Assembly: GCF_945873075.1 (NCBI RefSeq)
Contig: NZ_CAMCBS010000003.1
Span: 1 to 64,000, forward strand
DNA: 64,000 nt
Source of the DNA: an uncultured Moraxella sp.
GTDB lineage: Bacteria; Pseudomonadota; Gammaproteobacteria; Pseudomonadales; Moraxellaceae
Direction: 5' to 3'
The position numbers and the translations under genes are program-made. Of this stretch, positions 3 through 57,210 are shown in pieces. The notes below the pieces were generated by a model. It ran no database searches, had not been told where the DNA came from, and saw only the letters and a list, made by a program, of their open reading frames with translations. The number at the start of each line of letters is the position of its first letter. Position 1 is the stretch's first letter.

Positions 3-2447
3 TTGTTATTTATCACTCGCCATATCGTCATTGATGATGTCAGCTTGATGTGGATTGCTTATATCAACCGCCATCTCCAAGGCAAAATGCCGACATTTGA
101 ACAAACCCAGGAGGCGTTGCAGGCCCTTCTGAAAATCAAGCAACCAAAGTCTCAACACTTTAATGCAATACAAAAGGGTTTGTATCTTGCCAGACAGACC
201 TTTAAAAATTCACAGCTGGATATGCAAATGTCTGCCATTGTCAGCGATCAGCAAAAACACACGAGCATCGGCAGTGATCAGTGGAACAAATACCACTCAC
301 CAAGCTTTAAACCACTGATATTAGCGCTATCCGATGAGCTGTTTACCACGACTTCGCCCATCAAAAAAGGTAAGGCAGAGCCAACCGATAAACCAGCTGT
401 ATATAAATCCGATCTAGTGCGTGAAATAAGAAATATCCTAAATCAAACTAACACCACAGCCATCGAATCGCTTAAGGGGCTTGCCAGTCAGACACAAATA
501 AGTGCCCAGCTGGGTCTGATTTATTGGATAAGCGATCTACTTAACGGCGTAAAATCTGCAGGTATCAAACGTCATCAATCTACAAGTGCCCAACGCTATT
601 TAAGCGAGGTTGGCGATTGGTTTTTACATTTTGTGCAAGATCAAGACATAACCACTTGGAATGCCGATGATTTTATCAATTTATATGAAAGTATCATTTA
701 TCAATCCAATAAGAAGAAGATAGGCTACACAGCAACTGTGCTCAGATCCTTACACCAATCTTTGCAAAGGCATTTTGTGAGCATTCCCGGTGTCGCAATT
801 GCAAGTAAAAGCGATGGCATGGTGGTTGAGCCTGTCCTTGTCGCACCTATTATGTATCAGCATATCCGCAATCTGATACAGTCATCAACATTGAGTGAGC
901 ATAATCAAAAAATATTGGACATCATCTTTATTCTTTTGTATCGCACAGGCATGCGGATCAATGAGCTTTTGGGGCTTAAACTTAGGGATTTTGAGTATGA
1001 TTACAAGCAAGAACAAACAGTCATCCTAAATATTTTGGTACGTCCCAATGGTTATCGTAGTATCAAATCTGATGATGGTCATCGTAGGCTTTGCCTGCAG
1101 CCACTGCTCAAACCATCCGAACTGCAATTGGTGCATGAGTGGTATTTGTTACGCAAACAAAGAAATGAGACTTTCTTTTTGACGCTAGAGCACAAATCGA
1201 GTGCGCTTGAATATCATGAAATCCAAAAACCAATCTCGGTGATATTGGATACTTTGCCTTATAAGGTAACCCCACACGGCTTTCGCCATAATGCCATCAG
1301 TGTGATGGCGATGATTTTGGGTGGTGCAGATGCGCTCTTGCCATATTTCAGTGACTATAGCAGTGATGAGATATTGGCGATTAAGCGCAAGTTTTTGGGT
1401 GAATGTCATCAGATATCGACAACAGCATGGAGCATCTTGGCAGAATTTGCCGGCCATTCATCGCCTGAAACGACATTTTCTAGCTACATTCATGTGGCTG
1501 ATTTGATTGCGTATAGTCAAATGGCTCATACGACGATTGAAATGCCTGCGACTTTGGTGGAGGCGCTGACAGGTCTTCGTCGCCAAAGTTTTAGCGACAA
1601 TGGGCGTCGTGCCTATGATAAAGATAGCGGCATGGTGAACCTAAATGATATTCGTACACTGATAATCAAGCAATTGGATGCCAATTGTTATCACAGACCT
1701 GCTCGTGTTACACTGCCTACCATCAAAATCGCGTCACACAAAGCATCAAGCAAAAATCAGATGCCTGATATCTTAAAGATTGATGTACATGCAGCCGTGA
1801 TGAAGTTTTTGAAGAAGCTGCAAGACAATTACTCATTTGAGCACGCCAAATCCGAAGGCTTGGATTCAATCAAGGCTGAGAAGATTAAGAATTATATTGA
1901 CACGCATCGTAAACAATTAACATCCTATTTTGGGGATAAAGGTAAAAAGAATCCAAATCAATATCTACCGATCGAACCCAAAATCAAGCAGGAAATCACT
2001 TTACTACACAATTTACTTGAAAAATTAGGTGATTTATATCAGGCAGATCGCAAAGCATTTGATGATTTTGTGGTGATTTTACGCGGTGCAAGCTTTGTAA
2101 GTGGTCAGATGCGAATGCCTTTTAAGGATCGGGAGCAAGTTTATCGATTTGCACAAATCGCCGTCAAGCTACTAGACAAAAAGTATTGGCAGATTGAAGT
2201 TGCCGCTAGGTCTGATGTTAAAAAGTCTATCAATCTAAACCAAGAATTGGCTCAATTAAAGCAAGAAACCACAATCATTGCCAAAAAATCAACTCGTGCA
2301 AATAGCTCTTATACGGGATTTTTGATATCAAATACCTATACCATCGATAAGAAGAAGCATAATGGCGTTGCCATATTGCAACATGTATGCTTTTTATTGG
2401 TGGTGGGGGTTGATGCTTTTTTGGATAAGCCTCAGAGTAATATATAG
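3..2447 (+). CDS. Large tyrosine recombinase/integrase, 5' end outside window
   Basis: The reading frame is open from the first bases, so the true start probably lies upstream; 814 residues are visible. The catalytic set of tyrosine recombinases can be read: the first Arg in GMRINELLGL (about residue 318), HGFRHN (about 425), AGHSSPETTF and the nucleophilic Tyr in SSYIHV (about 484-498). About 300 residues follow the catalytic core, more than in XerC/D or ordinary phage integrases, and they are of unknown function. By family it should cut and rejoin DNA at specific sites during integration or excision. It is the only recombinase seen near the catabolic array and may belong to the element carrying it (inference). 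The last 45 or so residues look poorly conserved, and a late frameshift cannot be excluded. Confidence 0.8.
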   Translation: MLFITRHIVIDDVSLMWIAYINRHLQGKMPTFEQTQEALQALLKIKQPKSQHFNAIQKGLYLARQTFKNSQLDMQMSAIVSDQQKHTSIGSDQWNKYHSPSFKPLILALSDELFTTTSPIKKGKAEPTDKPAVYKSDLVREIRNILNQTNTTAIESLKGLASQTQISAQLGLIYWISDLLNGVKSAGIKRHQSTSAQRYLSEVGDWFLHFVQDQDITTWNADDFINLYESIIYQSNKKKIGYTATVLRSLHQSLQRHFVSIPGVAIASKSDGMVVEPVLVAPIMYQHIRNLIQSSTLSEHNQKILDIIFILLYRTGMRINELLGLKLRDFEYDYKQEQTVILNILVRPNGYRSIKSDDGHRRLCLQPLLKPSELQLVHEWYLLRKQRNETFFLTLEHKSSALEYHEIQKPISVILDTLPYKVTPHGFRHNAISVMAMILGGADALLPYFSDYSSDEILAIKRKFLGECHQISTTAWSILAEFAGHSSPETTFSSYIHVADLIAYSQMAHTTIEMPATLVEALTGLRRQSFSDNGRRAYDKDSGMVNLNDIRTLIIKQLDANCYHRPARVTLPTIKIASHKASSKNQMPDILKIDVHAAVMKFLKKLQDNYSFEHAKSEGLDSIKAEKIKNYIDTHRKQLTSYFGDKGKKNPNQYLPIEPKIKQEITLLHNLLEKLGDLYQADRKAFDDFVVILRGASFVSGQMRMPFKDREQVYRFAQIAVKLLDKKYWQIEVAARSDVKKSINLNQELAQLKQETTIIAKKSTRANSSYTGFLISNTYTIDKKKHNGVAILQHVCFLLVVGVDAFLDKPQSNI

Positions 2448-2472
2448 GGCTTGATGGTATATTTATGTTATC

Positions 2473-2519
2473 AAAAACCAAAAAAACTCAAGGGCTGGAG
2501 TAAATACCCAACCCTTGAG
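2473..2519 (-). terminator. Rho-independent terminator after catD
   Basis: An 8-bp perfect stem (CTCAAGGG at 2487-2494 with CCCTTGAG at 2512-2519), extended inward by further pairs, is followed on the minus strand by a T-rich tract (TTTTTTT, then more T). It lies about 180 bp past the catD stop and is the likely end of the leftward catabolic transcript. Confidence 0.65.
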
Positions 2520-2535
2520 ACTTAATCAATCCTGC

Positions 2536-2661
2536 ACCGGTACAAATTTATGAATTTAGCGAAGCTTGCTATGACAATCAAATCAATCAAAAGTTTACCA
2601 ACCAACAGCAAAGCTGAACGAGTAATTAGAACCTTAATGCAAATATGTATACCGGTACAAA
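2536..2661. repeat. Two ACCGGTACAAA motifs
   Basis: The 11-mer ACCGGTACAAA occurs at 2536-2546 and 2651-2661. The same word is found inverted at 21522-21532 and with one mismatch at 21918-21928. The full form TTTGTACCGGTACAAA is palindromic. All copies lie in non-coding or decayed DNA at the two edges of the catabolic block. I see no gene in 2448-2697. Confidence 0.5.
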
Positions 2662-2697
2662 ACCCGAACCCAACCCCTATCTTTGAAAATCAAAAGT

Positions 2698-3477
2698 TTA
2701 GCCATCCACAAAACCTTCAATTATTTTATTAAAATCACTAGGGCGCTCTATATTTGCTATATGTGACGCTTGAATGGTTGCAAGAATAGCTCTCGATACA
2801 TTATCGACAATAAATTGGGCATCACTAACAGGGGTAACTGGATCCAGCTCTCCACCGATTGATAAAATAGGCAGCTTAATCTCTTTGAGCCCATCCCTCA
2901 CATCAGCTATAGCTAAAGCTTGACAACAAGCCGAATAACCTTCAGCGCTTTGATTGGACAAATTTTTAGTCAATCGATCAACAACATCCCCATTCTGGAC
3001 AACAAAACTCTCGCTAAACCAACGAGAAGGAGCTGAACTGGCAATACTTTCAAGTCCATGCTCAAGCACAAGCTTTGCCCTATCCTGCCAAGCGCTTTCT
3101 TGCCCAATTTTGGCGGCGGTATTGCTAACAATAATTTTATTAAAACGCTCAGAGTGATGAATGGCAAGCCACAGCCCTGTCAAGCCACCCATAGAAATGC
3201 CACAAAAGTTAGCTTTTTGTAAGGATAATTCATTTAATAAAGTGATGACATCCTCGCCCAACTCCTCAATAGTATAACTTCCTTTTGGCGCATCTGATTT
3301 TCCATGTCCACGAGTATCATAGGCAATAATAAAAAATTTATCTTGCAATGCATCAATTTGTGGCTGCCACATGGTATGGTCAGTGCCCAAAGAGTTTGAA
3401 AAAATCAAGGCAGGGTTGCTTTTATCCCCAAAGGTTTGATAAAAAATTTGTCCATCTTTGGTTTGACAATACGACAT
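2698..3477 (-). CDS. catD: 3-oxoadipate enol-lactonase
   Basis: Alpha/beta hydrolase of about 259 residues that hydrolyses beta-ketoadipate enol-lactone to beta-ketoadipate in the cytoplasm. The nucleophile elbow is GISMGG; the acid and His are expected in GGELDPVTP and ASHIANIERP near the C-terminus. The ATG at 3477 is chosen because AAGGA stands 6 nt before it, whereas an ATG two codons upstream abuts that site. It is the last gene of the leftward catabolic array, just after catF, the same relative order as in the Acinetobacter cat operon. The symbol pcaD would be equally valid biochemically; catD is used because no protocatechuate genes are present. Confidence 0.9.
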   Translation of the reverse strand: MSYCQTKDGQIFYQTFGDKSNPALIFSNSLGTDHTMWQPQIDALQDKFFIIAYDTRGHGKSDAPKGSYTIEELGEDVITLLNELSLQKANFCGISMGGLTGLWLAIHHSERFNKIIVSNTAAKIGQESAWQDRAKLVLEHGLESIASSAPSRWFSESFVVQNGDVVDRLTKNLSNQSAEGYSACCQALAIADVRDGLKEIKLPILSIGGELDPVTPVSDAQFIVDNVSRAILATIQASHIANIERPSDFNKIIEGFVDG

Positions 3478-51859: not shown

Positions 51860-51887
51860 AAAATCCCACTTCTACAGTGGGATTTTT
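51860..51887 (+). terminator. Terminator, first of two identical copies
   Basis: AATCCCACT and AGTGGGATT form a 9-bp stem (11 bp counting flanking A-T pairs) with loop TCTAC and a T-run. The same 28 bases recur at 52620-52647; the two copies bracket the RelE/XRE module. Confidence 0.85.
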
Positions 51888-51965: not shown

Positions 51966-52280
51966 ATGTACACCATTGCAGAGACCGACCAATTTATCCG
52001 ACAAGTTGCCGACATTTAGTCAGATGATGAACGCTTAGAGTTCTTTGACTATTTGGCGAACAATCCCACCAAAGGCGATGTCATCCCCAATGCCAAAGGC
52101 TTGCGCAAAATTCGTTATGCGGCAAAAGGTCATGGCAAGCGTGGTGGTGCGAGAGTGATTTATTATAATATGCTGGATGATGGCTTGATTATTGCAGTTG
52201 CCATCTACCCAAAAAACGAACGAGAAGACCTAAGTAACAGCCAAATGAAACAGTTGGTCAAACACAAGGAGTTGCTATGA
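51966..52280 (+). pseudogene. RelE/HigB-type toxin gene with in-frame amber codon
   Basis: The frame starts MYTIAETDQFIRQVADI, hits TAG at 52017-52019 (codon 18), and continues SDDERLEFFDYLANNPTKGD then LRKIRYAAKGHGKRGGARVI in the same frame. The second part is an intact RelE-type toxin body, and related proteins have Trp or a similar residue at the TAG site, so one G to A change would explain it. The stop overlaps the antitoxin start (ATGA). A shorter product from an internal start is possible but would lack the N-terminal helix. Confidence 0.8.
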
Positions 52281-52600
52281 CACTGCCAAATTTCAATGTT
52301 GATGAAGTCATGCAAGCCATCATTGCTGATGAGCCAGACCTTGCCATGCACCAAGATAGCCTGCATAGCGCATTAAGCCAATTGAAGAACAAAGAATTTG
52401 GGCGTATCACCACACCAGCCGCCCAAATCCGCCAAAAGGCAAACCTATCCCAAAGCCAGTTTGCCCGTGCCATCGGCATTTCGGTCAATACGCTCAAATC
52501 TTGGGAGCAAGGACAAAGACAGCCTAGTGGTTCTGCGCGTGTACTGCTTGACCTACTGAGCCGACGCCCTGAGCTGATCGGTGAAATCGCCGTTAGTTAA
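52277..52600 (+). CDS. XRE-type antitoxin (HigA/NadS-like)
   Basis: 107 residues. The helix-turn-helix is IRQKANLSQSQFARAIGISV then NTLKSWEQGQRQPSG (about residues 55-90), the typical C-terminal HTH of antitoxins that follow RelE-type toxins. It is intact while its toxin carries a nonsense codon, so it may now act only as a repressor. A terminator copy lies 20 bp after the stop. Confidence 0.8.
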   Translation: MTLPNFNVDEVMQAIIADEPDLAMHQDSLHSALSQLKNKEFGRITTPAAQIRQKANLSQSQFARAIGISVNTLKSWEQGQRQPSGSARVLLDLLSRRPELIGEIAVS

Positions 52601-52619: not shown

Positions 52620-52647
52620 AAAATCCCACTTCTACAGTGGGATTTTT
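52620..52647 (+). terminator. Terminator, second identical copy
   Basis: Identical to 51860-51887 over 28 bases. It closes the XRE gene transcript and sits just before the Ibs-like locus promoter. Confidence 0.85.
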
Positions 52648-52660
52648 TTATGCTCAAAAC

Positions 52661-52689
52661 TTGACTGATATTATATACTAGTATATAAT
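52661..52689 (+). promoter_or_regulatory. Strong promoter overlapped by a 20-bp palindrome
   Basis: TTGACT (52661-52666), 17 bp, TATAAT (52684-52689): near-consensus sigma-70. The perfect palindrome ATTATATACTAGTATATAAT covers 52670-52689, including the -10 box. It drives the leader and the 21-codon peptide gene at 52762. Confidence 0.75.
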
Positions 52690-52739
52690 ATATCCTATCA
52701 ACACAATGCTGTGCTGATGAGCAGTAAGGCTTCAACCTT

Positions 52740-52895
52740 ACCGCAAACAAGGAGTAAAACGATGAAAGCCATTCTCAAAGTGCTTGCAATCATCGCTCTG
52801 CTGTTGCTAAGCTACCCAGCTTACTAACAGTAAACGCCTAAAGGTGGTAACGACACCCAAGGCAGGTTAGGTGGAAACGCCTAGCCACTCCTTAT
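52740..52895 (-). ncRNA. Candidate antisense RNA opposite the Ibs-like gene
   Basis: From the minus-strand promoter at 52928-52901 a transcript would start near 52894 and run across the whole peptide gene and its ribosome site, the Sib arrangement. The region contains repeated AAACGCCTA words and GGTG/CACC pairs that can fold. The 3' end is not visible: the GTAAGG/CCTTAC stem near 52723-52741 has no T-run behind it. Existence is inferred from promoter and gene layout. Confidence 0.45.
52762..52827 (+). CDS. 21-residue hydrophobic peptide, Ibs-like candidate type I toxin
   Basis: The peptide begins MKAILKVLAIIALLLLSY and ends PAY; GGAG stands 8 nt before the ATG. E. coli Ibs toxins are 18-19 residues with a hydrophobic core ending in text like LLLISFSAY, and the ending LLLLSYPAY here is close. 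Ibs peptides damage the inner membrane and are silenced by antisense Sib RNAs. A leader of about 65 nt with a GTAAGG/CCTTAC hairpin (52723-52741) precedes it, and an opposing promoter lies at 52901-52928. The gene is too short for ordinary gene finders; the resemblance was judged by eye. Confidence 0.65.
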   Translation: MKAILKVLAIIALLLLSYPAY

Positions 52896-52900
52896 TTATT

Positions 52901-52928
52901 ATCATACTAAGTTTTTAAAAAAAGTCAA
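52901..52928 (-). promoter_or_regulatory. Opposing promoter facing the Ibs-like gene
   Basis: On the minus strand TTGACT (52928-52923), 16 bp, TATGAT (52906-52901). The -35 element is as strong as the one for the sense transcript. No protein gene on the minus strand starts within 400 bp downstream, so it most likely makes an RNA. Confidence 0.55.
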
Positions 52929-52938
52929 GGAGAAGTAC

Positions 52939-53139
52939 ATGACCACTTATAGCCAAGCACACCAAAAAGCCACCAATAATTACCGAACCAAAGCACTAGC
53001 CAATATCGCCTTGGTCATCAGCCACACTGAGCCTGATGTCTTGGTGGCACTTGAGACCATCATGGCACATCATGACACATCCAAAGCAGGAGCGATTAAG
53101 ACAGCATTGGTTGAGTACGCCAAGACGCTCACCCGCTAA
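52939..53139 (+). CDS. Small helical protein, unknown
   Basis: 66 residues: an N-terminal polar segment, then helices ANIALVISHTEPDVLVALET and AGAIKTALVEYAKTLTR. The pattern of a second helix ending in a short basic tail is like small regulators of the RHH or partition type, but the family is not recognised. CAAGGAGAAG precedes the ATG. It ends against the first phage tail gene on the other strand. Confidence 0.5.
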   Translation: MTTYSQAHQKATNNYRTKALANIALVISHTEPDVLVALETIMAHHDTSKAGAIKTALVEYAKTLTR

Positions 53140-53438
53140 GCAGGCCCACTTGTCCGCTTGCCACCACTTTCCACGCCACCATGCGTATGCGTCGATAGGC
53201 TCACGCCTGCCCCTACAACATCGCCTACAGCGACCACTGTGCCAGTGACGCTCACATCACCATTGAGCGTGATGGATGGGGCATTGATCGTGACACTGCT
53301 TGCGCTGACAGTCACAGCACCACCGACAGCATTGCCGACCGCTTTATCACCACCGCCTTTGAATAGACTGGTAAAGCTATTCCACAGCTCGCTCGCTTTG
53401 GCTTTCCACCCTTCAATCTTAGCCAAAAGCCTTCCCAT
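53136..53438 (-). pseudogene. Phage baseplate/spike protein C-terminal fragment (gpV-like)
   Basis: 100-codon frame. Repeated beta-strand text (AVTVSASSVTINAPSITLNG, then DVSVTGTVVAVGDV) and the ending STHTHGGVESGGKRTSGPA are typical of the C-terminal needle and tip of P2 gpV-type spikes, where HxH binds metal. The N-terminal OB domain is missing, and the frame is fused to tape-measure sequence at its start. It is the downstream end of a decayed leftward tail operon. Confidence 0.7.
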
Positions 53439-53712
53439 GCCTTGCTAAAGCCTGCAAAATATCGCCAACGCTGATATTCATGCGTTTGACACTATCGCCA
53501 AGCTGATAGTATTGCCCAATCATCTTGCCCACGCCTTTTGAGCCATTACCCATCGCCGTATCGATGCTTCGACCAAGGCGCGCATGTTCAGCTTGTAGCA
53601 CATTACCCGCCTTTGATAGCGATTTGACCGTACCGCCCAGTTCGGATAATGCAGAAACCGCAGCCCCTGTGACTGCTGAGACCACTAAAGAGATTGAAAA
53701 TTCCGCTGCCAT
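53419..53712 (-). pseudogene. Tape-measure protein N-terminal fragment (gpT-like)
   Basis: 97 residues starting MAAEFSISLVVSAVTGAAVS, followed by helical text ALSELGGTVKSLSKAGNVLQ, characteristic of P2-like tape-measure N-termini. The normal protein has 700 or more residues; here it stops at once where it meets the gpV-like fragment, so a deletion removed most of gene T and the genes up to V. The first 19 bases around its start are repeated at 54251-54269. Confidence 0.7.
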
Positions 53713-53760
53713 TGGTTAAAATACCTTATAATGCTTTGAATTGGTTACAGGAGAATACGA

Positions 53761-53979
53761 GTGACGGACACTTTCATCGTCTGGTTTTTTATTTTGCTGT
53801 GCCTATCTCCCATTATCATATTGCTGACCAAACTTGTGATTGTCTTTATCTTTGTGCCCATCGGTACGATGTATAGCATCGCCAAGTATGGTGTAAACCT
53901 TGATGATAACGATGAAGAAGCCATCGATCCCAAGCTTGAAGCCGAACTCAAACACCGCTATCCCGATAGCCGTTGGTAG
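53761..53979 (+). CDS. Small membrane protein in tail operon, opposite strand
   Basis: 72 residues from a GTG start (CAGGAG before it). Two hydrophobic helices, IVWFFILLCLSPIIILLTKL and VIVFIFVPIGTMYSIA, are followed by an acidic cytoplasmic-like tail (DDNDEEAIDPKLEAELKHRY). TATAAT at 53727-53732 may be its -10 box. It is read against the surrounding phage genes and is followed 6 bp later by a second membrane-protein gene. Function unknown. Confidence 0.6.
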   Translation: MTDTFIVWFFILLCLSPIIILLTKLVIVFIFVPIGTMYSIAKYGVNLDDNDEEAIDPKLEAELKHRYPDSRW

Positions 53980-53985
53980 GCCATC

Positions 53986-54240
53986 ATGCCGAACACCTTT
54001 GAGAAAATCTTTAACTTCTTGCTTGATGCCAGCACTGGTTCTGCTTGGCTTGCATGGACGATTTTTGTTTTATCTGTCGGGGGCTTATGGCTCTTTACCG
54101 ATGCTAATTTCACGATCGCTCTGCTGTTTGGCATTCCTTTGAGCTTGATTTTAATCATCGTCTGTGTACTTGCCTTATTTGTCTGTTATTTGGTCATGAT
54201 GCTACTGTCTGAGTTTTATTGCATTTTCACCAGAAAGTGA
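53986..54240 (+). CDS. Small membrane protein, second gene of cassette
   Basis: 84 residues. An amphipathic start (MPNTFEKIFNFLLDA) is followed by two or three TM segments (AWLAWTIFVLSVGGLWLF; IALLFGIPLSLILIIVCVLA and on). It begins 6 bp after the previous stop, so the two are coupled. Family not recognised; the pattern is compatible with a superinfection-immunity or toxin-immunity membrane protein, but nothing in the sequence proves that. Confidence 0.6.
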   Translation: MPNTFEKIFNFLLDASTGSAWLAWTIFVLSVGGLWLFTDANFTIALLFGIPLSLILIIVCVLALFVCYLVMMLLSEFYCIFTRK

Positions 54241-54298
54241 TAAAAATGATCTGCCATTGGTTAAAATACTCTTAAAAGGGCTAAAACAGGACTAAGCA

Positions 54299-54469
54299 AT
54301 GATTGATTTTCTACTATGGGTGATTGCTGCTGTTTTTATCCTTGGAGCAATAGTAGCGGTCATTTACTTACTTGCCGCCATATCGGATGTGGCTTTGGCA
54401 TTATTTGAGCTGATTACAACCATCTTTGAGCCCATCATAGACAGGCTAACTACCGGCAAATCATCTTAA
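54299..54469 (+). CDS. 56-residue single/double TM protein
   Basis: The frame starts MIDFLLWVIAAVFILGAIVA, continues VIYLLAAISDVALALFELIT, and ends DRLTTGKSS; one long or two short membrane helices. The upstream 19-bp repeat matches the one before the first cassette gene, hinting at a shared regulatory or recombination sequence. No good ribosome site is seen, so the gene call is moderate. It ends 11 bp before the gpE' stop on the other strand. Confidence 0.5.
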   Translation: MIDFLLWVIAAVFILGAIVAVIYLLAAISDVALALFELITTIFEPIIDRLTTGKSS

Positions 54470-54479
54470 TGCCAGTCAC

Positions 54480-54734
54480 CTAAGCCCTAGCATATCCCGC
54501 CTTAGCTTGGCGGGATAATTGATTGAGCCATCGATCAAAGTCATCGATATCAAGCATATCAATCTCATCACTACTCCAGCCATACCACCACGCTAGGTCA
54601 GCGATGGCATCCAGTAGCTCATTGTACCAGTTGTCACTCGCCGTCTTGGTCTTTTTGTTCTGATAATTGGCGAAAAGAGCGTTGTAGTTTTTGATAATCC
54701 TGCCAGTCAAGCAAATCCAAGTCTTCCGGCACAA
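54480..54734 (-). CDS. Tail assembly E' extension (P2 gpE'-like), probably made by frameshifting
   Basis: The region from about residue 10 overlaps the gpE frame; the unique part NWYNELLDAIADLAWWYGWS then SDEIDMLDIDDFDRWLNQLS matches the P2 gpE' helical domain. No convincing start codon or ribosome site is present, so it is expected to be read from the gpE frame. The change needed is +1 or -2; A5 tracts at 54688-54692 and 54652-54656 lie in the overlap. In P2, lambda and Mu such fusions are tail chaperones. A frameshift mutation in decayed DNA is the alternative. Confidence 0.65.
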   Translation of the reverse strand: MCRKTWICLTGRIIKNYNALFANYQNKKTKTASDNWYNELLDAIADLAWWYGWSSDEIDMLDIDDFDRWLNQLSRQAKAGYARA

Positions 54735-54936
54735 GACCCGTCAGACGAGCAAACAAGCCAAGCTCCTGCTCCACTTCGTTCTTTAGACTGCCGACCGCTC
54801 GCATATCACCGACACGAGCACGGCGCATCTTGATGACGCTCACGGTTTCGCCCATGCCGTTTTTGATTGGATGATCCAGTGTCACACTGATATGACTGCC
54901 AAGCTGTTCTTGGATGGTTTGGGTTGGATTGGTCAT
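54634..54936 (-). CDS. Tail assembly protein (P2 gpE-like)
   Basis: 100 residues. The text ITVTLDHPI-like start (SHISVTLDHPIKNGMGETVS), VIKMRRARVGDMRAVG and LTGLVPEDLDLLDWQDYQKL is standard for phage tail assembly proteins that bind the tape measure. GGAGTATG lies before the ATG. The reading frame is complete, unlike its neighbours T, V and the sheath. It overlaps E' by 101 bp. Confidence 0.75.
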   Translation of the reverse strand: MTNPTQTIQEQLGSHISVTLDHPIKNGMGETVSVIKMRRARVGDMRAVGSLKNEVEQELGLFARLTGLVPEDLDLLDWQDYQKLQRSFRQLSEQKDQDGE

Positions 54937-55058
54937 AACATACTCCTATTTGGGATAACGATAAAAAAACACTTGTGATGGTCATATTGTAAATAGATTG
55001 GCGTTTCACCGTCTTTTAAAGTGGTTTAAAAATAAAGATTGACAGTTTGGCACGACTA

Positions 55059-55087
55059 TTGACATTTACTGGCCAAATCGCTACCAT
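55059..55087 (+). promoter_or_regulatory. Promoter of the second rightward cassette
   Basis: TTGACA (55059-55064), 17 bp, TACCAT (55082-55087). TTTGGC and GCCAAA half-sites flank the -35 box. It points away from the tail genes, into the three genes at 55134-56081. Confidence 0.6.
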
Positions 55088-55133
55088 AAAGGTATCCATG
55101 ACCACATAGGTCGCTTAAAAAATCGGAGTTTTT

Positions 55134-55349
55134 ATGTTGCAGCACCTTAAGGCGTTATGGCGATGGCTTGTCACCGACCGCTTTCATGCGTTCAAAGACC
55201 GCAACAATCCTGCCAAAAGCGAAAACGGCTTTTTGATGATTGATAAAGATGGTGTTGCTCGTGTCGATTACAGCAATCCACACGCTCGCCAAAAGCTTGC
55301 CGATCAAATCGCTTTTTTTGCCACCATCAAAGTCAATCAAAAGAGCTAA
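55134..55349 (+). CDS. Small basic protein, unknown
   Basis: 71 residues, beginning MLQHLKALWRWLVTDRFHAF; the rest is polar (DKDGVARVDYSNPHARQKLA then DQIAFFATIKVNQKS). GGAG lies 7 nt before the ATG and a good promoter 47 bp upstream. It is the first of three rightward genes inserted between tail genes E and FII. I do not recognise a family. Confidence 0.55.
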   Translation: MLQHLKALWRWLVTDRFHAFKDRNNPAKSENGFLMIDKDGVARVDYSNPHARQKLADQIAFFATIKVNQKS

Positions 55350-55402
55350 CTAGTGCTAGCTGTCTTAATTTATATCAATTTTTATGCAATCATGGTGATT
55401 TT

Positions 55403-55651
55403 ATGAATAAAACATTTTGGCAGGGCTTGCTGAATGCTTTATTTATTCAAAGCAATCCGCCTGCTCCAAAAACAACACATCAAACATTGGCACACTTTGA
55501 CGATGCGCTTGAACAATCCCTTGCACACGACTGGCAGGCTGTCGGTGGTGATATTCATCTTGCAAGCGTGCGTACCGCCAAAGCTCAAAGCCCAAGTTTT
55601 CAAGCATCTTTATTAGCCAAACTTTCATATCATGACCCAAAAACAGCGTAA
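55403..55651 (+). CDS. Hypothetical protein, 82 residues
   Basis: The first 15 residues (MNKTFWQGLLNALFI) may be a membrane-interacting helix; the rest is polar, with an acidic helix TLAHFDDALEQSLAHDWQAV. Its end overlaps the next start by 20 bp, so it is probably translated together with the DUF2335-like gene. Family unknown. Confidence 0.5.
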   Translation: MNKTFWQGLLNALFIQSNPPAPKTTHQTLAHFDDALEQSLAHDWQAVGGDIHLASVRTAKAQSPSFQASLLAKLSYHDPKTA

Positions 55652-56081
55652 AGGCACACGCCTACAAGCCAAACAGGATGAGCACGGCGTTCAAGCTCAG
55701 TTTGAGCATGTTGAAGAATACTCCATCTATCCACCTGCTGAGTTTTTACAACAACTGCATCAGATTGATTCAAAGTTGGTGCATCAAGTCATGGATATGG
55801 CACAAAAAGAGATGGAGCACCGTCAAGCTCTACAAAACCAACAACTGACAGAAATTCAGCGAGTAAACTCCGCCCATATACAATACGATCAAAATTCACT
55901 GGCTTTATTTCGCCGCGGTCAATGGTTTGGTTTGATTGTCGCTATTGGTTTAATGCTGGTAGCGATTGTTGCCATGTACTTAAATTTCCCTTTTGTTGCA
56001 GGCACAGCCATTACTGCAATCATTGGCATTTTAATCGTTTATGTTTTAAGACAATCTCCAAATCCCCCATCAGCACAATAA
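55632..56081 (+). CDS. DUF2335-like membrane protein
   Basis: 149 residues. A polar N-terminal half with EEYSIYPPAEFLQQLHQIDS and a helix rich in Glu/Gln (MAQKEMEHRQALQNQQLTEI) is followed by two TM helices (WFGLIVAIGLMLVAIVAMYL and GTAITAIIGILIVYVLR). This matches the DUF2335 pattern: a P-x-x-x-L motif, a coiled helix and two TM segments at the C-terminus. Such genes are common in prophages and islands; their role is unknown. A bidirectional terminator follows. Confidence 0.65.
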   Translation: MTQKQRKGTRLQAKQDEHGVQAQFEHVEEYSIYPPAEFLQQLHQIDSKLVHQVMDMAQKEMEHRQALQNQQLTEIQRVNSAHIQYDQNSLALFRRGQWFGLIVAIGLMLVAIVAMYLNFPFVAGTAITAIIGILIVYVLRQSPNPPSAQ

Positions 56082-56088
56082 ACACACT

Positions 56089-56120
56089 AAAAAAGACAGA
56101 CCGCTTAAGTCTGTCTTTTT
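56089..56120. terminator. Bidirectional terminator between cassette and tail tube gene
   Basis: AAAAAGACAGAC and GTCTGTCTTTTT form a 12-bp perfect stem with a 7-base loop. It can end both the rightward cassette and the leftward tube transcript, so gpE would need a separate promoter. Confidence 0.85.
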
Positions 56121-56132
56121 ATTTTGCCAACT

Positions 56133-56645
56133 TTACGCCCCAACCACTCGGCGGAAGTTTGCCAGCGCATCTGTGCCATTGACACGATACTCGTTCTTAA
56201 AGGCATTAAAATACAGCACTTCTTTACCATCGATCAGCTGACGCACTTCATGCGCCTGAAAGGTACTGGCAAATTCAGCACGCTCTTTAGGCTTATAGCT
56301 ACCCAGTGGGTTTTTGCTAAAATTACCCGTCAAAATGGTCACCAGTGGCACTTCTGCCGCCAAGCCTTGTGCGTCATGCTTTTGGATATCGGCACGCACC
56401 ATGATTTGCACCGCCTTGAACGGATGATACGCCATCTTAAACGCATCTTCATAAAAGCTGTTCCAAGTGATTTCCCCTTCGAGTGCTTCTACGCCTGATG
56501 GCAGTTTAATCGTGCCGACCAGACCAAGACCCTTGTACTCATCTTGGCTGATTTCCACTTCAGGCAGCTTGATTTCTTGGGCTTGACCCAACAGATTGTT
56601 GCCGTTGATATAGACATTGGCATTATAAATCACATTAACTTGCAT
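56133..56645 (-). CDS. Phage major tail tube protein (P2 gpFII-like)
   Basis: 170 residues. The start MQVNVIYNANVYINGNNLLG, the segment EIKLPEVEISQDEYKGLGLV and a C-terminal YFNAFKNEYRVNGTDALANF match contractile-tail tube subunits. The length matches P2 gpFII (172). It directly follows the sheath fragment on the minus strand (their end and start coordinates touch). It seems intact, although the particle genes around it are broken. Confidence 0.85.
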   Translation of the reverse strand: MQVNVIYNANVYINGNNLLGQAQEIKLPEVEISQDEYKGLGLVGTIKLPSGVEALEGEITWNSFYEDAFKMAYHPFKAVQIMVRADIQKHDAQGLAAEVPLVTILTGNFSKNPLGSYKPKERAEFASTFQAHEVRQLIDGKEVLYFNAFKNEYRVNGTDALANFRRVVGA

Positions 56646-56889
56646 CAGTTCGCTCCTTTAGCCAAGTTCACGAGATATTTACGCGTCATCACGCTTGTGT
56701 TGGTGATGCGTTCAGCAGGCAGTTTTGGGGTGTAGTCATAGACGATTGGCACTTGTCCCTTACTAAAGGCATCGACCAAGTCATAGTCATAATCTAGGCT
56801 CACCGAATAGCCGACGATGGATTTGAGCGTACCAAGATAGGTGCGGATGCCTTCGATTAGGCTGTCAATCAGTGCATCATCGATCTCAA
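56645..56889 (-). pseudogene. Tail sheath C-terminal fragment (P2 gpFI-like)
   Basis: About 80 codons are recognisable: ALIDSLIEGIRTYLGTLKSI, then QVPIVYDYTPKLPAERITNT and SVMTRKYLVNLAKG. This is the standard end of contractile-tail sheath proteins (about 390-400 residues). Upstream of 56889 the frame stays open but the text no longer fits a sheath; there the plus strand encodes the end of a different gene. The remaining 300 residues of sheath are missing. Confidence 0.75.
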
Positions 56890-57004
56890 AAAAGAAGGCA
56901 TCCCAGTCAAAACAAAGATGGTCACCGCCAAAAGCGGTAAACGCCACGCCATCTATTGGCTTGAGCCTGACTATATCCACAACCAAAAGGAGCAAGCGGT
57001 ATGA
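56888..57004 (+). pseudogene. 3' end of an unidentified rightward phage-type gene
   Basis: The frame reads KKEGIPVKTKMVTAKSGKRH then AIYWLEPDYIHNQKEQAV and stops in an ATGA overlap with the next gene. No start codon with a ribosome site precedes it, and it begins exactly where the sheath homology ends, so it is the truncated 3' part of a gene cut by the same junction. Family unknown. Confidence 0.5.
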
Positions 57005-57210
57005 CCAAAGCACACGCCCTAGCCCATAGCCTACTTGGTAAATGGCGCATCCCTGCAAGCGAAGTCGAAGGTAAGGTGAATAACACCCATCTTGTTGATG
57101 AGATTTTACGCAAACATGGCTATCGCAAAGTGTTTGATCGTACATCCACCAGCCATAAGGGCTGGGCAATCAGCGAACGCTTTACCAAGCATAATGAGTA
57201 TTTGGCATAA
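57001..57210 (+). CDS. Small basic protein, phage-type, unknown
   Basis: 69 residues: MTKAHALAHSLLGKWRIPAS, then HLVDEILRKHGYRKVFDRTS and a polar tail. A possible HTH-like helix pair but no clear signature. The ribosome site AAGGAGCAAGCGGT lies before the ATG, inside the preceding truncated gene, and the pair is coupled (ATGA). A terminator follows at 57229. Function unknown; expression or regulation genes of prophages often look like this. Confidence 0.5.
   Translation: MTKAHALAHSLLGKWRIPASEVEGKVNNTHLVDEILRKHGYRKVFDRTSTSHKGWAISERFTKHNEYLA

Follow-up and report, generated by a model that had tools for sequence, protein, structure and literature searches.

Organization of the locus

Could a peptide of 21 codons, encoded beside a prophage remnant in Moraxella, be the toxin of a type I toxin-antitoxin module related to Ibs/Sib, and if so, by which means would it be kept silent? 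Ibs/Sib systems were described in E. coli (PMC4147584, available portion). In agreement with the original prediction, in which no Ibs-type toxin was known for Moraxellaceae, the literature search yielded no description of Ibs-type or type I systems in Moraxella among the matches listed. The words Moraxella, Acinetobacter and Psychrobacter are absent from the available text of PMC8309996, and the available portion of a prophage paper (PMC4619438) names HicB antitoxins and does not contain the term 'small RNA'.

The stretch of DNA analysed, hereafter the window, is 64 kb long and comes from a genome of 2.09 Mb. Within a prophage remnant, the module spans 52661–52928 and comprises two promoters that face each other and, between them, a leader with two hairpins, a 21-codon ORF and a 3′ region with predicted structure. 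The order of its parts is promoter, leader, Shine-Dalgarno (SD) sequence AAGGAG, ORF MKAILKVLAIIALLLLSYPAY, two 3′ hairpins, the motif ACTCCTTA, convergent promoter and an ORF of 66 aa, with the following positions:

52661–52689 (−35 box 52661–52666, −10 box 52684–52689), plus strand: toxin promoter TTGACT-17-TATAAT, score 11/12
52668–52691, no strand: perfect 24-nt palindrome between and over the promoter boxes, from a palindrome scan of the window; proposed operator
52697–52718, plus strand: leader hairpin 1, 5′-terminal (fold and relatives)
52722–52744, plus strand: leader hairpin 2 (fold)
52749–52755, plus strand: SD sequence AAGGAGT, 5′ half of the predicted long-range pairing (folding, co-variation)
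52762–52827, plus strand: 21-codon ORF for an Ibs-like hydrophobic peptide, likely a membrane toxin (translation, Pfam, hhalign, alignment)
52808–52823, plus strand: palindromic ORF end TAAGCT-ACCC-AGCTTA (read from the sequence)
52836–52863, plus strand: 3′ hairpin A (compensated changes)
52865–52886, plus strand: 3′ hairpin B, which resembles a terminator but has no strong U-tract
52887–52893, plus strand: ACTCCTT, anti-SD, 3′ half of the predicted long-range pairing (folding, co-variation)
52928–52901, minus strand: convergent antisense promoter TTGACT-16-TATGAT, score 10/12
52743–52893, minus strand: predicted Sib-like antisense RNA, its limit at 52743 being that of the Rfam match
52839–52873, no strand: protospacer identical to a 35-nt CRISPR spacer of another genome of the genus (genome G013, locus L014)
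52939–53139, plus strand: 66-aa downstream ORF (phrog_9399), proposed cognate regulator (co-variation with the promoter spacer)

The near-consensus promoter with its translatable hydrophobic ORF, and the second promoter facing the gene from the opposite strand, are therefore present as predicted. The same holds for the prophage remnant, whose structural genes lie on the minus strand at 53136–57170 (tail, head-closure and tail-sheath-like ORFs; phrog_166, phrog_55, phrog_23) and flank the module on one side. On the other side lies an HTH antitoxin-like gene (52277–52600), which is open and belongs to a decayed type II pair adjoining the module (51966–52600). The RelE/HigB-like toxin ORF beside it is broken by an in-frame stop, with an open piece at 52053–52280 that matches PF06296 (E 6.9e-5) without reaching the curated cut-off. 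This pair is bracketed by two terminator-like hairpins of nearly the same sequence (AATCCCACTTCTACAGTGGGATTTTT), at 51861–51887 and 52621–52647.

Conservation of the peptide

The SD sequence AAGGAG ends 7 nt upstream of the ATG of the ORF, and the reading frame is conserved in relatives, a test on which the original prediction could have failed. Among 22 divergent copies of 21 aa, pN/pS is 0.45, and 0.40 for codons 11–21, a rough measure because of the many synonymous differences (pS 0.74); the pairwise difference at codon positions 1, 2 and 3 is 0.47, 0.23 and 0.60. In an alignment of 31 rows, the N-terminus is variable, the hydrophobic centre and the C-terminus are kept, S17 is nearly invariant, and most rows end in xAY. 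For IbsC, the accessible part of PMC8309996 reports that toxicity requires the centre and the C-terminus and tolerates most N-terminal deletion. One copy (L047) is frame-shifted, and two (L041, L042) carry a C-terminal Cys.

Probable relationship to Ibs/Sib

The resemblance to Ibs/Sib, proposed originally from the look of the locus, is supported by three comparisons. At the protein level, the Pfam model Ibs_toxin (PF13956) gives a weak score for the window peptide (14.7 bits, E 0.03); of 29 relatives scanned, 21 are matched at E ≤ 1, the best at 8.2e-6, and two rows of 18 aa are too short for the Pfam scan. Ibs_toxin alone recurs among the relatives, three further Pfam families matching one member each. 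At E ≤ 1 the model is unspecific, with matches in 62 of 199 genomes of the family and 9 of the 14 controls, so that an isolated weak match carries little weight; its curated cut-off (27 bits) is reached in none of the 199. Its high-scoring matches led to further modules. In the second comparison, hhalign aligned the peptides to E. coli IbsA–E over 15 C-terminal columns, with a probability of 96%.

At the RNA level, the Rfam model SIB_RNA aligns in full length (model positions 1–147) to the antisense strand, with 39.8 bits for L103 (E 1.2e-4), 39.1 for L037, 33.1 for L106 and 24.0 for L105. For the window, the match runs from 52928 to 52743 with 19.9 bits and E 0.13; L141 has no match at E ≤ 1. 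Among 22 genomes of the genus, 17 of the 25 matches at E ≤ 1, including all of the best 10, coincide with peptide modules, and the gathering cut-off of RF00113 (56 bits) is reached in none of these genomes. In the controls, E. coli scored above the cut-off, and the matches in Sulfolobus remained below it.

As both models match, yet below their curated cut-offs, a distant Ibs/Sib-like branch is the best-supported reading of these sequence comparisons; formal membership in Ibs/Sib is not claimed, since both cut-offs are missed. Blastn similarity to E. coli ibs loci amounted to one chance match in 5426 E. coli genomes. Alternatively, the module could be of independent origin and have converged on an Ibs-like peptide and layout, sharing no ancestor with ibs/sib. 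This would accord with the lack of blastn similarity and with scores below the cut-offs, as well as with the absence of bridge sequences in the samples of the class and the order, where profile A4 gave, besides the source genome, one marginal match in 369 and one in 293 genomes (G601, G723). We nevertheless consider convergence unlikely, because two unrelated models, one of a protein and one of an RNA on the opposite strand, pick identical loci, and because the palindrome at the ORF end, the hairpin after the stop, the complementarity between SD and 3′ end and the start of the antisense RNA resemble E. coli ibs.

Distribution in phages and genomes

In regard to its distribution, a stretch of 286 nt around the module matches 12 of 50,697 phage records, every one of them an M. 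catarrhalis phage, and it also has matches elsewhere in the genus, the best at E 3.4e-48. A pattern search for the 3′ motif retrieved 54 IMG/VR stretches and 7 genome contigs, 5 of them from Moraxella. Forty of the 43 distinct matches carry the peptide, the frame-shifted copy among them, and the three without it are L087, truncated where the locus ends, and two chance matches outside Moraxella. With these two chance matches set aside, 40 of 41 copies are followed by a downstream ORF. Peptide, leader hairpins and 3′ motif are kept among relatives, and mostly also the downstream ORF.

With peptide profile A2, 13 of 348 genomes of the family matched at E ≤ 0.02, namely 10 of the 22 genomes of the genus, including the source genome with its single copy, one g15 genome with five copies and two g7 genomes; one of the 30 places listed (L164) falls inside a long unrelated frame. 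Spread to a clearly separate genus is not claimed, and a search of plasmids gave no match. In M. cuniculi (L106, contig G003:C15), three Ibs-like modules stand in tandem, with near-identical leaders and 3′ ends and different peptides. The conservation in phages and in genomes of the genus places the module beyond chance, and it is likely spread by phages as a toxin-antitoxin unit.

In the five phage records that were opened, the peptide is unannotated and its relative sits, in the manner of a moron, amid phage genes encoded on the other strand. Such a position would also suit a small, non-toxic phage membrane peptide under the control of an antisense RNA, serving for example in superinfection exclusion or lysis timing. 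We regard this as improbable, given the similarity to Ibs and a predicted layered silencing of the kind typical of toxins; moreover, the frame-shifted copy and the copies ending in Cys are as could be expected of a decaying toxin.

A further alternative follows from the ORF of 50–100 aa that stands downstream in 34 of 38 variants, with the 3′ motif shortly upstream of it: the peptide could be a leader peptide, a regulatory upstream ORF that controls the downstream gene. However, the four M. cuniculi modules, three of them tandem, are without such an ORF, a leader would not be expected to come with a convergent promoter or a Sib-type antisense match, and the conserved part of the peptide is the hydrophobic core and C-terminus that the toxicity of IbsC requires (PMC8309996, accessible part). 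A leader peptide is thus very improbable, and the toxin of a phage-borne module remains the preferred reading.

Two observations concern phage immunity. Locus L014 (G013) holds a CRISPR array at 1068–3033 with 29 exact repeats of 32 nt, and one of its 35-nt spacers equals window positions 52839–52873 with zero mismatches; a host has thus sampled exactly this module. In a simple scan, the other spacers between exact repeats gave no match in the window within 5 mismatches, with one interval that contains an altered repeat left unsplit. Read on the minus strand, the protospacer follows TTC, the PAM of type I-C systems. In the second case, L141 (G004), matches to isrK and C4 antisense RNA above the gathering cut-off lie at 687–901, a few hundred bases from an Ibs-like module, and mark what is probably a phage immunity region.

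RNA folding and predicted pairing of the ribosome-binding site

The leader and trailer had been described as foldable, and both are so in the window, the two leader hairpins with a z-score of −2.6 and the 3′ region with −4.9, compared to means of −3.0 and −3.5 in 27 modules. RNAalifold found 0 pairs in a MAFFT alignment of 11 leaders, whose hairpins vary in length and register; hence the evidence for the leader consists of single-sequence folds. Of the 7 pairs predicted for 3′ hairpin A, 5 are changed with compensation in one or more of 18 sequences.

Beyond the original prediction, the analysis points to a pairing of the SD with the 3′ end of the mRNA, a palindrome in the promoter and a linked downstream gene. 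In E. coli ibsA–E, the ribosome-binding site is complementary to a sequence past the post-stop hairpin, where sib starts; the fraction of shuffles pairing as well as the native sequence is 0.050 for ibsC, 0.046 for ibsA, 0.030 for ibsB, 0.004 for ibsD and 0.004 for ibsE. In Moraxella, the partners are AAGGAGT and ACTCCTT, and variants changed on both sides occur: AGGAACAG/CTGTTCCT in L168, AAGGAA/TTCCTT in L158, TGGAGT/ACTCCA in L157 and TTAGGAGA/TCTCCTAA in L105. The DNA alignment A3 of 22 rows misplaces some of the SD sequences.

For the quantitative tests, the copies with sufficient flank, 53 of them distinct, were condensed to 38 by peptide and ribosome-binding site, and to 25 representatives. 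The duplex test was run on all 38 and on the 25, and the fold and antisense tests on the 25 together with two further tandem copies, that is, on 27 modules. For the representatives, the choice of which lowers relatedness and does not remove it, the mean duplex energy was −11.56. When the partners were swapped, it was −10.20, and 2 of 20,000 permutations did as well as the native pairs; shuffled tails gave −8.28 ± 0.41. In folds with a uniform 3′ end, the SD is paired with the 3′ region with a probability of at least 0.5 in 25 of the 27 modules (mean 0.89; the misses are L011:2390 and L067), to be read against shuffled 3′ regions, with which the SD also pairs easily (mean 0.38; 10 of 27 shuffled means at least 0.5). 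Once the 3′ end is removed, the predicted pairing of the SD falls from a mean of 0.95 to 0.41. In the fold before this removal, pairing with the 3′ end reaches at least 0.8 in 25 of 27 modules, the exceptions being L011:2390 and L157, the latter because the folded stretch ended before its motif.

The SD is therefore predicted by folding to pair with the 3′ end of the mRNA, both sides co-varying over relatives. Long-distance pairing between SD and anti-SD is known for type I toxins (PMC6733600 in its available part, citing Han et al. 2010); by itself it is thus a trait of this class of systems and no novelty.

Promoters and the predicted antisense RNA

Within the module, 2 promoter-like sites were found where shuffles led to an expectation of 1.3 ± 1.4, so that the promoters alone are not beyond chance. 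Across the 27 modules, a promoter-like site for the toxin is present in 25, and the best promoter score on the antisense strand is moderately better than in shuffled sequences (mean 9.4 vs 7.2, of 12). In 19 of these modules, 10–18 nt separate the end of the antisense −10 box from the end of the motif complement. In E. coli, the SIB_RNA match begins 35–36 nt ahead of the annotated sib RNAs; as the match in the window starts at the predicted −35 box, the antisense RNA would begin near 52893, with the predicted 5′ sequence AAGGAGTGG. For neither predicted RNA was an intrinsic terminator evident.

Promoter palindrome and downstream gene

The palindrome ATATTATATACTAGTATATAATAT in the toxin promoter is the sole gapless perfect palindrome with arms of at least 10 in the window. 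Over 28 modules, the dyad score at this place has a mean of 6.29, compared to 4.21 in shuffled sequences, and is individually significant (p < 0.05) in 10. The M. cuniculi loci L067 and L106, without a downstream ORF, score 3.0 and 5.0; low scores also occur in the presence of the ORF, as in L037 (3.25).

In 28 variants with both a promoter match and a downstream ORF, similarity of the promoter spacer tracks similarity of the downstream protein (r = 0.60, 0 of 2000 permutations) and does not track the toxin core (r = 0.07, 381/2000). A control segment of the leader tracks the downstream protein weakly (r = 0.17, 11/2000), and the flank upstream of the promoter does so more strongly (r = 0.35, 0/2000). 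Shared inheritance may thus account for part of the operator signal, although the spacer retains r = 0.55 with the protein (0/2000) once flank and core are controlled for. L105 and L168 have an identical spacer and related downstream proteins, while their toxins and leaders differ. Since the spacer tracks the downstream ORF and not the toxin, these correlations suggest that the product of the ORF is the cognate repressor of the toxin promoter.

As to the type of protein, the downstream family of L043 looks like a ribbon-helix-helix (RHH) family, judged by profile and fold comparison. RHH_1 is matched by 24 of its 27 members at E ≤ 1 (best 1.4e-4), sequence comparison with the PDB gave EndoAI and CopG at E 0.012–0.042, and Foldseek placed CopG and Arc first, with probabilities of 0.84 and 0.75 and E above 0.6. 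The source name of P0017 reads 'ribbon-helix-helix domain-containi...', and the neighbour of L037 matches phrog_3887, a transcriptional regulator. For the family of the window (phrog_9399), there was no RHH match in Pfam among 17 members and none in Foldseek; its sequence profile gave CopG at E 0.51 and a weak match to the RHH family, and the PDB sequence search with the window protein did not establish an RHH fold.

A model for the module

Taken together, the locus is quite probably a phage-borne Ibs/Sib-like type I module, whose toxin would be silenced by the pairing of the SD with the 3′ end, by a Sib-like antisense RNA and by the product of the downstream ORF. The function that we infer for it is the following. 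Transcription from the sense promoter would give an mRNA that opens with a hairpin. In the full-length mRNA, ACTCCTT past the 3′ hairpins is predicted, by fold and co-variation, to cover AAGGAGT upstream of the start codon, and loss of the 3′ end would free it. From the opposite strand, the antisense RNA would start at the 3′ motif with AAGGAGTGG, a copy of the ribosome-binding site, in the position that E. coli Sib has relative to ibs, and, by analogy with Ibs/Sib, run through the ORF and block translation. Judging by the co-variation, the palindrome in the promoter is likely the site to which a dimer of the downstream protein binds. If the prophage or the repression were lost, the peptide would be released and, as with IbsC, could damage the membrane.

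It is also conceivable, though we put this more specific scheme at somewhat less than an even chance, that phages carry a type I module with three layers of silencing for an Ibs-type toxin: its mRNA pairs with itself, a Sib-type antisense RNA acts on it, and a repressor of its own binds the DNA as a dimer. The toxin core would then recombine freely between an operator and a repressor that stay matched to each other. If so, each phage lineage would keep its own specificity of repression, like phage immunity. The dozens of diverged modules represent a natural set in which RNA switch, antisense RNA and operator could be read by co-variation, and the phage copies would link chromosomal Ibs-type toxins to phages.

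Comparison with known systems

With the RHH repressors and antitoxins CopG, Arc and EndoAI, the module shares a palindromic promoter and, for the downstream family of L043, likeness in sequence and fold. It differs from them in that the regulator gene adjoins a peptide gene of type I layout, and the window's own family is without confirmed RHH. As in aapA/IsoA of Helicobacter pylori and hok/Sok, the full-length toxin mRNA is predicted to be inactive through 5′–3′ pairing of SD and anti-SD (PMC6733600, available part); unlike in those systems, the only Pfam family matching more than one relative of the peptide is Ibs_toxin.

Compared to E. coli Ibs/Sib, the Moraxella module is phage-borne, its 5′ leader is longer and has a hairpin at the very 5′ end, its 3′ region is longer, and it possesses a promoter palindrome and, in 34 of the 38 variants, a downstream ORF. 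On the other hand, it shares with E. coli Ibs a hydrophobic peptide of 18–21 aa, with an end that is mostly S-x-x-A-Y (S-F-x-A/T-Y in E. coli), and with ibs a hairpin upstream of the SD, a hairpin after the stop and a 3′ motif complementary to the ribosome-binding site. The palindrome TAAGCT-ACCC-AGCTTA at the ORF end has its counterpart in TAAGC-TTCCCC-GCTTA of E. coli ibsB. The three tandem copies in M. cuniculi (L106) may parallel those of Ibs/Sib, the window's genome having a single copy, and, as with E. coli Sib, a convergent antisense RNA is predicted to begin at the 3′ motif.
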